Assembly (NCBI RefSeq): GCF_003287355.1
Contig: NZ_QMIM01000015.1
Span: 1 to 64,000 of the forward strand
Length of the DNA stretch: 64,000 nucleotides
Direction of reading: 5' to 3'
Source: Halorubrum sp. 48-1-W
GTDB taxonomy: Archaea > Halobacteriota > Halobacteria > Halobacteriales > Haloferacaceae
Made by a program: the position numbers and the translations under genes. Positions 11,739-26,824 of this stretch are shown here, piece by piece. Every line of letters begins with the position of its first letter. Positions within the stretch are counted from its first letter, which is position 1. Under the pieces are notes generated by a model, which was not told the DNA's origin, did no database searches, and was given only the letters and a program-made list of their open reading frames with translations.

Positions 11739-12833
11739 TCAAGTTTCGGACGGTCCGGAGTCGAGGAACGCCACGACGCCGTCGACCACCCGCTCCGCCG
11801 CGTGACCGCCGCCGTACAGCGGCGGTTTCTCGGGTAACTCGTCCGTCCGTCGGAGCGCCCGGCGGATCGCCTCGGCGTCGGCCCCGACGAGTTCGTTCCA
11901 CCCGGCCTCGACCGTCTCGACCCACTCAGTCTCGTCGCGGAGGGTGACACACCGGGTGTCGAGGTAGAACGCCTCCTTTTGTACCCCGCCGGAGTCGGTC
12001 GCGACGCGCTCGGCCCCCGCCAGGAGCCCGACGAAGTCGACGTACCCGACCGGATCGGTAAGCGTCAGCGCGTCCGTCGCCCGCTCGAGGAGGCCGTGAC
12101 GCTCCAGCGCGCCCTCCGTCCGCGGATGGAGGGGGACGACGACGCGACGGGGCGACGACGCCAGCCCCTCGACGATGGCGGCCAGCCGTTCGGGGTCGTC
12201 CGTGTTGGCCTGTCGGTGGACCGTCGCGAGGACGTACTCGTCCGGGTCGACGTCGAGGTCGTCCAGGACCGTCGACTCCGCGACCGCCCGCTCGCGCACC
12301 CGCAGGATCGCGTCGTACATGACGTCGCCGGTTACGGTCACGCCGTCGGTGATCCCCTCTTCGGCCAGCGTCCCGACGGCCCGCTCGGAGGGGACGAAGA
12401 GCAGGTCCGAACAGCGGTCCGTGAGCACCCGGTTCACCTCCTCCGGCATCGACCAGTTCCCGCTCCGGAGCCCCGCCTCGACGTGGCCGATCGGGATCCC
12501 CCGTTTGGCTGCGACGAGGGCGCCGGCGAGCGTCGAGTTGGTGTCGCCGTACACCAAGACCAGGTCCGGCTCCTCCGACTCGACGACGGCGTCGAGCTCC
12601 CGGAGCATCACAGCGGTCTGGACCGCGTGGTTCGCCGACCCCACCCCGAGGTTGTACTCCGGTTCGGGGATGTCGAGCTCCTCGAAGAACACGTCCGACA
12701 TCCCGAAGTCGTAGTGTTGCCCGGTGTGGACGAGCACCTCCCGGACCCGCTCGCGAAGCAGCCCCGACACCGGGAACGCCTTGACGAACTGCGGGCGCGC
12801 GCCGACGACCGACAGCACCGTCGGGTCGTTCAT
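11739..12833 (-). CDS. wecB: UDP-N-acetylglucosamine 2-epimerase (non-hydrolysing)
   Basis: A 364-residue protein that interconverts UDP-GlcNAc-type and UDP-ManNAc-type sugars by anti-elimination and re-addition of UDP at C2. All family hallmarks are present: GARPQ near residue 11, YGDTNS with Asp97, HVEAGLRS with Glu119, MPEEVNR with Glu131/132, TVHRQAN with His206, and the UDP-binding DSGGVQKEA. With the five-gene operon at 18083-23471 it can fill the WbpI step that makes the diacetamido-mannuronic acid donor; ordinary UDP-ManNAc synthesis is also possible. It is convergent with the toroid gene, one base beyond that gene's stop. The second paralog at 43995 lacks these catalytic residues. 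Confidence 0.92.
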   Translation of the reverse strand: MNDPTVLSVVGARPQFVKAFPVSGLLRERVREVLVHTGQHYDFGMSDVFFEELDIPEPEYNLGVGSANHAVQTAVMLRELDAVVESEEPDLVLVYGDTNSTLAGALVAAKRGIPIGHVEAGLRSGNWSMPEEVNRVLTDRCSDLLFVPSERAVGTLAEEGITDGVTVTGDVMYDAILRVRERAVAESTVLDDLDVDPDEYVLATVHRQANTDDPERLAAIVEGLASSPRRVVVPLHPRTEGALERHGLLERATDALTLTDPVGYVDFVGLLAGAERVATDSGGVQKEAFYLDTRCVTLRDETEWVETVEAGWNELVGADAEAIRRALRRTDELPEKPPLYGGGHAAERVVDGVVAFLDSGPSET

Positions 12834-23682: not shown

Positions 23683-25086
23683 ATGCGTTTCAACTCCGCT
23701 CCAAGCCAGTGGGTCCGTGTTACCGGCGATACCGACGGTTCCGGGCGTGACGGGGCGTCCGCCGACACGACGGGCATCTCGCGCCGGTCGTTCGTTCGGA
23801 TCGGCGCGACGGCGGCCGGGGTCCCGCTCCTCGCGAGCGCGACGGGCGGAGGGTCTGCCACGGAGCCGAACACGTCGGGAGCAGTGACGGACGCGTCCGA
23901 CACGGAACCGGATACCGCCGGCGAGCAGTGGACGGTCGTCGCGCTTCCGGACACGCAGTACTTCACGGTCAACGATCGATGGTATCGGTTCGCGATCGAC
24001 CAGGTCGACTGGATCGTCGAGAACGCGGACGCGGAGAACATCGTCTTCGTCACACACGAGGGCGACATCGTCAACGAGGGAAACGACCCGACGAAGTGGG
24101 TGTGGATGGACGCCGCGCTGTCCGAACTGGACGGAGTGGTCCCTTACAGCACGCTTCCCGGGAACCACGACTACGCCGAGACGGGAGTCCGACGGTCCGG
24201 GCTGGACGCCTACACGACGTACTTCGGCGCGTCGCGGTTCGACGGCTACGAGTGGTTCGGCGGGACCGGCCCGGGCGACGAGGAGGCGAACTCGTATCAA
24301 CTGTTCTCCGCGGGCGGGTACGACTTCCTCCACCTCGCGCTGGAGTGGGAACCGCGTGACGTGACGCTCCAGTGGGCACAGAGCGTCCTCAACCGTCACC
24401 CCGAGCGCCCGACCCTGCTCACGACGCACTCGTACCTCACGGACGGCAACGCCGAGCGGGATACGAGGGGAGACGAAGAAGCGGACGGGGACGAAGAAGC
24501 GGATGGGGGCGAACTGAACCCCGGCCGGACCCGCTACGTCCAGGAGGCTGACGGGGACGGGAACGGCGGGGAGGCGGTCTGGCGAAAGCTCGTCGAGCCG
24601 AACGCGCAGGTGTTCGCGGTGCTTTGCGGCCACTTTCACGAGAACGACGGCGAGTACCACCAGACGTCCGAGAACCGGGACGGACTCACCGTCTACGAAC
24701 TGCTCGCGAACTATCAGGCACGGGAGGCGACCGGCTTCGACCGACTCCGACTCCTCACCTTCGTGCCCGACGGTGGCGAGGACGCTCCCGATCGTATTGA
24801 GGTACACACGTACTCGCCCCACCTGGCCGAGTACGAGGTCAACGCCGACAGCCACATCTCCTTCGATCTGGACTTCGAGGACCGGTTCTCGGCGTCCCTG
24901 CCGTCCCGATCCCCCGGAGACGTCGACGGCGACGGCGACGTGGACGACGACGACGTCGAGCTCGTCCAACGGTACCTCGCCGACCGGGACGTCGAGCTCG
25001 ATCGAGACGTAGCGGACGCCAACCGAGACGGTGAGGTCGACATCACGGACGTGGTCGAGATCGCGAACGAGCGAGGGTCGAGATGA
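23683..25086 (+). CDS. Tat-secreted metallophosphoesterase with C-terminal dockerin-like module
   Basis: A 467-residue exoenzyme. Arg34-Arg35 in ISRRSFVRIG plus the following hydrophobic run form a Tat signal with no lipobox Cys. Calcineurin-type phosphoesterase motifs follow in order: LPDTQ, HEGDIVNEG, LPGNHDYAE, TTHSYL and CGHFHEN, giving a complete dinuclear metal site. An acidic, partly repeated insert (GDEEADGDEEADGG) sits before the last motif. Residues 412-467 form a dockerin-like pair of Ca2+-binding F-hands: DVDGDGDVDDDD and DANRDGEVDITD, each followed by a helix. The stop overlaps the start of a cohesin-like gene by four bases, so enzyme and receptor are probably co-translated. Substrate unknown; a phosphodiester or phosphomonoester outside the cell is inferred. 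Confidence 0.85.
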   Translation: MRFNSAPSQWVRVTGDTDGSGRDGASADTTGISRRSFVRIGATAAGVPLLASATGGGSATEPNTSGAVTDASDTEPDTAGEQWTVVALPDTQYFTVNDRWYRFAIDQVDWIVENADAENIVFVTHEGDIVNEGNDPTKWVWMDAALSELDGVVPYSTLPGNHDYAETGVRRSGLDAYTTYFGASRFDGYEWFGGTGPGDEEANSYQLFSAGGYDFLHLALEWEPRDVTLQWAQSVLNRHPERPTLLTTHSYLTDGNAERDTRGDEEADGDEEADGGELNPGRTRYVQEADGDGNGGEAVWRKLVEPNAQVFAVLCGHFHENDGEYHQTSENRDGLTVYELLANYQAREATGFDRLRLLTFVPDGGEDAPDRIEVHTYSPHLAEYEVNADSHISFDLDFEDRFSASLPSRSPGDVDGDGDVDDDDVELVQRYLADRDVELDRDVADANRDGEVDITDVVEIANERGSR

Positions 25087-25703
25087 CCCGACTCACCGGG
25101 TCCGCGGGACGACGGCCGGCGGTCGCGGTCGCCGTCACGGTCGCGCTGGTCGTGGGTGCGATCGTCTCGAGCGCCGGCGTCGTCGCCGCAGACGACGCGT
25201 CGGTCCGGGTCACGGGTGCCGACGGCGGGACGTCGCTCGAGGGGACCGACGGCGAGCGGTTCAACCTGACGGTCACGGCGAACGCGACGAACGTGTCCGC
25301 CTACCAGGCCGTGCTCGCCTACGATCCGGAGGTGGTGGAGGTCGTCTCGGTGTCGGGAACGGACGAGTTCGACGACCCGGTGGCGAACGTCGACGAGGAG
25401 GGCGGGCGGGTCGCGTTCAACCAGTACCGGTCCTCGACCGTCGGCGACCCGGCGCTCGCGACGCTGACCGTCGAGGTGGTCGGCAGCGGCGGGAACTGGA
25501 CGCCGATCGCGTTCGTGGAGTCCGAGACGGAACTCTCGGACGACGTGGCTCGGGAGCGGGGGATCGGCCGATTCGACGGCCTCACGGTCACCGTGGTGTC
25601 GGAGGCCGACGCCACCGAAGCGGTCGTGCCGGGTTTCGGGGTGACGACCGCCCTCGCCGCGGGCGCGACGACGTACGGCTACCTCTACTGGAGACGGAGA
25701 TAG
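25083..25703 (+). CDS. small cohesin-like surface protein with PGF-CTERM anchor
   Basis: A 206-residue protein starting in ATGA overlap with the dockerin-bearing phosphoesterase. Residues 1-38 are a Sec-type signal (RRPAV then a long Ala/Val run ending VVAADD). Residues about 40-165 match the cohesin/CBM-associated beta-sandwich: FNLTVTANATNVSAYQAVLAYDPEVVEVVSV-type strands, then GGRVAFNQYRSS and DPALATLTVEVVGSG. NAT and NVS give possible N-glycosylation sites. The C-terminus has VPGFGVTTALAAGATTYGYL and RRR: the PGF motif, hydrophobic helix and basic tail recognised by archaeosortase. It would therefore display a dockerin receptor on the surface. It overlaps the convergent gene at 25685 by 19 bases. 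Confidence 0.82.
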   Translation: MTRLTGSAGRRPAVAVAVTVALVVGAIVSSAGVVAADDASVRVTGADGGTSLEGTDGERFNLTVTANATNVSAYQAVLAYDPEVVEVVSVSGTDEFDDPVANVDEEGGRVAFNQYRSSTVGDPALATLTVEVVGSGGNWTPIAFVESETELSDDVARERGIGRFDGLTVTVVSEADATEAVVPGFGVTTALAAGATTYGYLYWRRR

Positions 25704-26824
25704 GGTTCGGTCGTGTCGGAGAGCGATCGGATGCCGTCGACTATCTCGCGGTCGAGTCCGTCCTCGTGCCACTCGGCACTCCGCGGGACCGCCGCGCGGT
25801 AGGTTCCCACGTCCGCGAACAGCTCCCGGAAGACCGCCGCCTCGGCGTCGACCACGTCCTCCAGCCGTTCGGTGATGGAGGGACCGGGACAGAGGGCGTC
25901 GTACGCGCGGAAGTACTCCTCGAGGAGTTCGTTCCACTCGAAGTAACTGATCGCGTCGGTCGCCGAGGCGACCCGGTCGGCGGACGCCTCCTCGATCGCC
26001 ACGTGGTCGCTGTTCGGTGCCGCTCCGAGGACCACGACGTCGTCCACGGTCGACTCCGCGACGTGGTCGGCGCGCGGGAACATCTCTTCGACGGTCGTGA
26101 AGCTCCGCCCGTTCCCCGTCAGGAACTTTCGATTGAGGAAGTTGACCCCGTTGTGTGCGAGACTCGCGTTCGAGTCCACGTTCAGCTCGATGAACTCGCT
26201 CACCTCGTGGCGGGCGCGGTCCCGGAGCCCGTCGTGTCGGACCTCGAGCTCCGGGAACGACTGGACGTTGTACGGCTGGAGGTTCACCGCCAACGGATAC
26301 CCGAGGGCGGTCCCGTCGACGCCGACCCAGAGCCGGTCGTCGGAGAGGAAGTCGGCCCCCTCGCGCAACAGCGAGATGAGCGTGTTCGTCTTTCCTCCCC
26401 CTCGCCAGGCGGGGAACACGGTCGTCTCCCCGTTCAGCTCGACGGCCGACCCGTGGACGAGCGCGTAACCGTCCTCTACGAGCGCCTCCCTGATCCGGAA
26501 CTCGACGGGATACGTGGCGAAGAAGGGTTCCCAGTCCGGCGAGACGTAGATGTGGTCCCAGCCCGGCTCGACGGCCATGAACTTCGACCCGTCCCGAACG
26601 ACGAACCGATCTCCGGTCCACCCGTAGTGGTCCCCCGGATCGCCGAGGACCGTCTCCGACTCGACGTCCTCGGTCGTCCGTTCGATCACGACGTCCGGCT
26701 CGCGGTCCGGGTCGTCGACCTCGAAGCGGTCGAACATCGTGTAGAACTGCCCGGTCGAGCGACCGCCGTCGCCGCGCACCTCGAGCAGGACCGCGCCGAA
26801 GAAGTCGTAGTAATGCCGTTTCAT
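25685..26824 (-). CDS. HPr kinase-like P-loop protein
   Basis: A 379-residue protein resembling the HprK-like kinases found in polysaccharide and peptide-modification loci. FPAWRGGGKTNTLISLL around residues 137-153 is a P-loop in which Asn follows GKT, and DFLSDDRLWV (158-167) corresponds to the HprK ADDR-like Walker B region. GYALVHGSAVELNGE precedes the P-loop exactly as in HprK. The N-terminal 110 residues and the C-terminal 180 are not assignable. No phosphocarrier HPr is present, so the phosphoacceptor is unknown; a role in protein or sugar phosphorylation during glycan synthesis is inferred. It is convergent with the cohesin-like gene. Confidence 0.65.
   Translation of the reverse strand: MKRHYYDFFGAVLLEVRGDGGRSTGQFYTMFDRFEVDDPDREPDVVIERTTEDVESETVLGDPGDHYGWTGDRFVVRDGSKFMAVEPGWDHIYVSPDWEPFFATYPVEFRIREALVEDGYALVHGSAVELNGETTVFPAWRGGGKTNTLISLLREGADFLSDDRLWVGVDGTALGYPLAVNLQPYNVQSFPELEVRHDGLRDRARHEVSEFIELNVDSNASLAHNGVNFLNRKFLTGNGRSFTTVEEMFPRADHVAESTVDDVVVLGAAPNSDHVAIEEASADRVASATDAISYFEWNELLEEYFRAYDALCPGPSITERLEDVVDAEAAVFRELFADVGTYRAAVPRSAEWHEDGLDREIVDGIRSLSDTTEPYLRLQ

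Follow-up and report, generated by a model that had tools for sequence, protein, structure and literature searches.

The overlapping genes examined here, from Halorubrum sp. 48-1-W, probably encode a one-enzyme, one-receptor surface docking pair, comprising a secreted metallophosphoesterase that ends in a type I dockerin and a small protein with a cohesin domain and a PGF-like tail. Both genes lie in a 64,000-nucleotide stretch of contig NZ_QMIM01000015.1, the whole of which is referred to as the window. The pairing itself is real, the two genes are conserved together and coupled, and we infer binding between their products from the protein families, the gene coupling, and the correlated evolution. 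Relatives keep or lose the tag and its socket together, and the arrangement therefore looks like a minimal, one-enzyme form of cellulosome-type docking.

The two overlapping genes and their products

The first-pass annotation of the window had described a Tat-type metallophosphoesterase ending in two F-hand loops, with its stop codon overlapping the start codon of a gene for a small protein. The open reading frame (ORF) and both calcium loops of the dockerin, DVDGDGDVDDDD and DANRDGEVDITD, are exactly as described, and four bases are common to the two genes (Table 1). The enzyme matched the Pfam Metallophos profile (E = 1.3e-8, 36 bits, cut-off 21.5) and its C terminus matched Dockerin_1 (E = 8.9e-8, 32.7 bits, cut-off 22.9). 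Residues D128, N161-H162-D163, H249, and the GHxH motif at positions 316 to 319 (H317 and H319), which we take to be metal ligands, were invariant in all 14 aligned homologs. A twin-arginine motif, SRRSFV, is visible near the N terminus, and its two arginines are present in 14 of 14 aligned homologs; the Pfam TAT_signal score was 12.9 bits against a cut-off of 22.7. In 11 of the 14 enzymes aligned, approximately 160 or more extra residues separate the phosphoesterase from the dockerin, a region identified as CBM96 (28.0 bits, cut-off 26) or DNRLRE in the two enzymes tested, while the enzymes of the window and of genomes G011 and G229 lack it. Additional matches obtained with NCBIfam for the two window proteins all fell far below the cut-off, and the structure model of the enzyme (pLDDT 43) was too poor for use.

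The small protein matched the Pfam Cohesin profile (E = 8.9e-8, 32.9 bits, cut-off 24.1), as did 10 of the 14 members of its alignment at E ≤ 0.01. An AlphaFold model built from a two-sequence input had an overall pLDDT of 53 and a core of beta strands. When this model was compared with the PDB using Foldseek, the matches ranked 1 to 37 were all cohesins (best E = 1.7e-3), with the Archaeoglobus fulgidus cohesin structure 2xdh at rank 41. The cohesin-like beta-sandwich noted earlier is thus a cohesin both by Pfam profile and by fold comparison of a low-confidence model, and the proposed check of whether it fits another family returned only cohesins among its 37 best matches. A search of PDB sequences with the alignment profile placed scaffoldin cohesins at the top (1.8e-5), along with matches to low-complexity linkers. 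In an alignment of 109 haloarchaeal cohesin domains, the motif FNQxR was confined to the phosphoesterase pair, which accounts for all 16 occurrences (the 15 pair loci described below plus L118, a second copy of L084). None of the 93 domains outside the pair had it, a set to which a few scaffold proteins contribute many repeats. Based on alignment with the cohesin of Clostridium thermocellum CipA, this segment presumably falls within the dockerin-contact strand.

The cohesin protein has a hydrophobic, Sec-type signal at its N terminus and ends in VVPGFGVTTALAAGATTYGYLYWRRR, a tail comprising a PGF motif, a hydrophobic stretch, and a basic end. No PGF-CTERM model in Pfam or NCBIfam matched the window tail at E ≤ 1, and its hydrophobic stretch scored 1.37, the lowest among the 15 pair tails; TIGR04126 matched only 1 of 14 homologs. 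PGF or a one-letter variant of it was nonetheless present in all 15 homologous tails of the pair, and archaeosortase A is encoded in the same genome (TIGR04125, E = 7.6e-101). A Sec-exported, archaeosortase-anchored partner had been proposed; as the window tail matches no model, surface anchoring by archaeosortase is a less certain step for this copy than the pairing itself.

Table 1. Features of the dockerin-cohesin pair and related loci in Halorubrum sp. 48-1-W (window positions unless a contig is named)
Feature	Position	Strand	Size or basis
Metallophosphoesterase gene, secreted, C-terminal type I dockerin	23683..25086	+	467-aa ORF
Twin-arginine motif SRRSFV, aa 33-38 of enzyme	23779..23796	+	Sequence; RR invariant in 14/14
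Calcineurin-like phosphoesterase domain, aa 106-320	23998..24642	+	Pfam PF00149; alignment
Type I dockerin, two F-hand loops, aa 411-462	24913..25068	+	Pfam PF00404; PDB dockerin sequence matches
ATGA overlap, dockerin gene stop and cohesin gene start	25083..25086	+	Sequence; -4 spacing in 13/15 loci
Cohesin gene: Sec-type signal, cohesin, PGF-like tail	25083..25703	+	206-aa ORF
Cohesin domain, aa 53-143	25239..25511	+	Pfam PF00963; Foldseek
FNQYR segment of cohesin, aa 112-116	25416..25430	+	Alignment of 109 cohesin domains
C-terminal PGF-like tail with hydrophobic stretch and RRR, putative anchor and substrate of archaeosortase A	25629..25700	+	Sequence
HprK-related kinase-like gene, conserved third gene adjoining the pair	25685..26824	-	NCBIfam HprK_rel_B, 1.3e-5, below cut-off
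Other dockerins of the same genome	C68:169-327; C25:16151-16315; C11:275588-275749		Pfam

The pair is flanked by genes for a UDP-glucose/GDP-mannose dehydrogenase, two Gfo/Idh/MocA oxidoreductases, a DegT aminotransferase, a hexapeptide transferase, glycosyltransferases, and a sulfatase-family protein; given these sugar-nucleotide and glycosyltransferase types, the region is regarded as one of glycan synthesis. Convergent to the pair is a kinase-like gene with a weak relation to HprK-related kinases. Its product had no Pfam match at E ≤ 0.01, and a comparison with PDB sequences gave nothing convincing, with HPr kinase appearing only at E = 0.74. The window's cohesin is the only Pfam cohesin in the genome, which carries four Pfam dockerins including that of the window. 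The dockerin on C68 belongs to a 323-aa protein whose called ORF shows no evident signal peptide, the one on C25 to a long secreted protein, analyzed through a 672-aa ORF, and the one on C11 to a 448-aa protein.

Conservation of the pair and joint presence of tag and receptor

The cohesin was searched against 59 relatives and the enzyme against 37 genomes; members of the cohesin and dockerin families were then sought across 293 genomes from the order, with a further dockerin search in 97 genomes. The pair was found at 15 loci, in 14 genomes and on a Halobaculum halobium plasmid, where its products are annotated as a DNRLRE domain-containing protein and a cohesin domain-containing protein. The accessions of the plasmid pair are WP_284063504 and WP_284063503. 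A survey of gene adjacency across haloarchaea had been suggested, and the two genes proved adjacent at these 15 loci, which span at least two haloarchaeal families. The spacing from stop to start is -4 at 13 loci, the exceptions being +6 and +2. The kinase-like gene adjoins the pair at all 15 loci, upstream in 11 and downstream in 4, and because it changes side, the junction between enzyme and cohesin is the more fixed of the two. It is intact at 14 loci and in fragments in G011 (L023, 7318-7973), where the pair is intact.

To compare tagged and untagged enzymes, the phosphoesterase domain alone was searched in the 293 genomes, giving 23 loci at E ≤ 1e-15. All 12 of the dockerin-tagged homologs had an adjoining cohesin, and none of the 11 untagged homologs had a dockerin or cohesin within flanks of approximately 4 to 6 kb on each side, as judged with local profiles built from these and other haloarchaeal domains. 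This distribution corresponds to a P value of 7e-7 if the draws are taken as independent, although the loci are related. Two genomes, G229 and G270, carry both a tagged copy with a cohesin and an untagged copy without one. In a tree built from 27 phosphoesterase domains, of which 15 have the tag and 12 lack it (one of the latter from a gammaproteobacterium), the tag changed at least twice on well-supported branches and four times on the best tree, and none of 500 shuffles required as few changes. The deep order of this tree is unsure owing to several long branches. The change is clearest in G292, in which the kinase-like neighbor and the Tat-type enzyme are kept, the enzyme ORF stops with no dockerin and unrelated sequence lies beyond it, and the cohesin is absent; its sister on the tree, G243 (support 95/98), has both tag and cohesin. 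This joint pattern of gain and loss suggests that the cohesin serves the dockerin.

Cohesins and dockerins elsewhere in haloarchaea

Among the 293 genomes, 121 contained a dockerin and 96 a cohesin. The spacing between the two families was examined for 121 cohesins from 84 genomes among the matches listed, extending to an E value of approximately 1.3e-4 and leaving out G037, G117, and G288. Among these, 46 of the 121 cohesins had a Pfam dockerin within 2 kb, compared with 0.25 expected from random placement in a 3.8-Mb genome; judged by hand from ORF lengths, 17 of the 46 nearby dockerins lay in the cohesin's own ORF and 29 in another. No Pfam dockerin was found at E ≤ 0.01 in 27 of the 84 cohesin genomes among the matches listed, and thus some haloarchaeal cohesins are without a visible partner. 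G310, a genome with no Pfam dockerin at the same threshold, has an ORF of more than 2,000 aa (L094, 3-6227) with a single cohesin near a PGF tail.

Other arrangements of the two domains were also observed. In G298 (L085, 4245-5459) and G261 (L086, 4156-5370), a gene for a 404-aa secreted dockerin protein directly precedes or overlaps the gene for a PGF-tailed cohesin protein, the same two-gene arrangement as that of the window pair with a different cargo; the L086 protein had no enzyme domain recognized by Pfam. In many genomes a gene for a long protein that combines both domains is followed by a short cohesin gene, and the one such long protein tested (L090) was a subtilase. A PhoX alkaline phosphatase-like protein with a C-terminal EDxNGxG dockerin (L098, 3212-6049, minus strand; Pfam, this locus only) is encoded approximately 9 kb from a cohesin gene (11751-12539, plus strand), and in other genomes of family f7 a dockerin lies 10 to 14 kb from a cohesin, at similar spacings. 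A further protein has 2,087 aa, with 14 cohesin domains, a Sec-type signal, and a PGF tail (L112, 5162-11425, minus strand, G288:C1). Its cluster includes at least three subtilases with a dockerin tag and several proteins that contain cohesin as well as dockerin, and a related cluster is present at L095/L096 (G117:C1). The 14-cohesin protein is apparently an archaeal scaffoldin for proteases.

The pairing of a Tat cargo with a Sec receptor, as proposed in the first-pass annotation, was seen by motif at all 15 pair loci. It did not extend to other dockerin enzymes, as the haloarchaeal dockerin subtilases examined have Sec-like N termini, and it was dropped as a general logic of haloarchaeal docking. 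Whether haloarchaea possess a general modular surface docking kit, made up of dedicated dockerin-cohesin pairs with class-specific recognition faces and ranging from a one-to-one pair to a 14-cohesin scaffoldin, is in our judgment evenly balanced. With similarly even confidence, the faces of such a kit may be FNQxR in the phosphoesterase pair, FTQS-like in the subtilase systems, and LEQRREP-like near proteins of the PhoX-dockerin type.

Alternative explanations and comparison with known systems

The principal alternative, which we consider unlikely but worth weighing, is that the dockerin serves to bind calcium or polysaccharide instead of acting as a docking tag, with the cohesin protein a separate surface protein that simply shares the operon. 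Haloarchaeal dockerins are called substrate binding in the portions of PMC10963439 and PMC13260240 available to us, the excess of genomes with dockerins over genomes with cohesins leaves some dockerins with no Pfam cohesin to meet, and the other three dockerins of the Halorubrum genome are of a different sequence type from that of the pair. Correlated presence at 15 related loci also fits co-inheritance of an overlapping operon. Against this explanation, changes in the tag and in the cohesin gene coincide on the tree, also in G292, which retains the remainder of the locus, and dockerins adjoin cohesins far above chance. That the two genes are neighbors by chance, as unrelated secreted proteins within a glycan synthesis region, is very improbable. 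Although the region is rich in envelope-glycan genes, the same 4-base overlap recurs at most pair loci in varied neighborhoods, one of them the Halobaculum plasmid, and chance adjacency is contradicted by both the number of loci and the proximity of cohesins to dockerins among the matches listed.

A further possibility, somewhat less probable than a substrate-binding dockerin, is that the window cohesin acts as a general receptor of all four dockerins in its genome, a small scaffold with many clients. The ratio of one cohesin to four dockerins favors it, and given the three further dockerins the cohesin could have other clients. However, those three are of the EDxNGDG type as opposed to the GDVDGDGD type of the pair, the C68 protein has no visible signal peptide, and G011, which retains the pair, has just one Pfam dockerin genome-wide. 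The earlier proposal of a minimal one-enzyme, one-receptor docking system is supported by the identity of the cohesin, the adjacency of the genes, and the coordinated presence and absence of tag and receptor; the additional dockerins qualify the term "one enzyme."

Under the docking interpretation, the phosphoesterase would be folded and loaded with metal in the cytoplasm before export through the Tat pathway, as its motif suggests. Sec would export the cohesin protein, whose PGF-like tail, probably processed by the encoded archaeosortase A, would retain it at the envelope. Binding of the calcium-loaded dockerin to the cohesin would then keep the enzyme at the cell surface. The substrate is probably a phosphorylated surface or extracellular glycan, a proposal made because the pair lies among sugar-nucleotide and glycosyltransferase genes and because in most homologs the dockerin is preceded by a carbohydrate-binding domain. 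Binding within the pair, if confirmed, would show how an archaeon retains a folded, Tat-exported enzyme at the surface via a separate anchored receptor, would provide a salt-tolerant docking pair for engineering, and would suggest that dockerins on haloarchaeal polysaccharide enzymes may partly act as docking tags. Because tag and receptor are gained and lost together, the noncellulosomal role of these domains is directly testable in genetically tractable haloarchaea.

No description of haloarchaeal cohesin-dockerin pairs was found among the results listed from the open-access literature. Secreted haloarchaeal polysaccharide enzymes with a type I dockerin are described for Natronoglomus mannanivorans in the portion of PMC10963439 available to us and resemble the tagged phosphoesterase in this respect; that paper differs in taking the dockerin as substrate binding, and the word "cohesin" is absent from it. 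In ANME archaea, as far as the accessible text of PMC9012536 goes, cohesins and dockerins likewise have a noncellulosomal use and are proposed to attach proteins at the cell surface. Transporter binding proteins and S-layer proteins are given as clients in that work, and the scaffoldin-like proteins contain up to 5 cohesins plus a dockerin, compared with the 14 cohesins of the L112 protein. With the bacterial cellulosome the window pair shares the same two domain families and the placement of the dockerin on the enzyme and the cohesin on a partner protein, which in the window pair is probably anchored. Unlike the cellulosome, it comprises one cohesin and one enzyme, with no multicohesin scaffoldin and no glycoside hydrolase, and membership in a cellulosome was rejected given a single cohesin in both the protein and the genome. 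The closest precedent is the noncellulosomal pair of A. fulgidus, in which the dockerin is in ORF2375 and the cohesin in ORF2376, genes adjacent by number; strong and specific binding of the two modules is credited to Voronov-Goldman 2011 where PMC9705933 cites that work. The window pair is likewise one of adjacent, noncellulosomal archaeal cohesin and dockerin genes, and it differs from the A. fulgidus pair in bearing its dockerin on a phosphoesterase, in the 4-base overlap of its genes, and in the PGF-like tail of its receptor.
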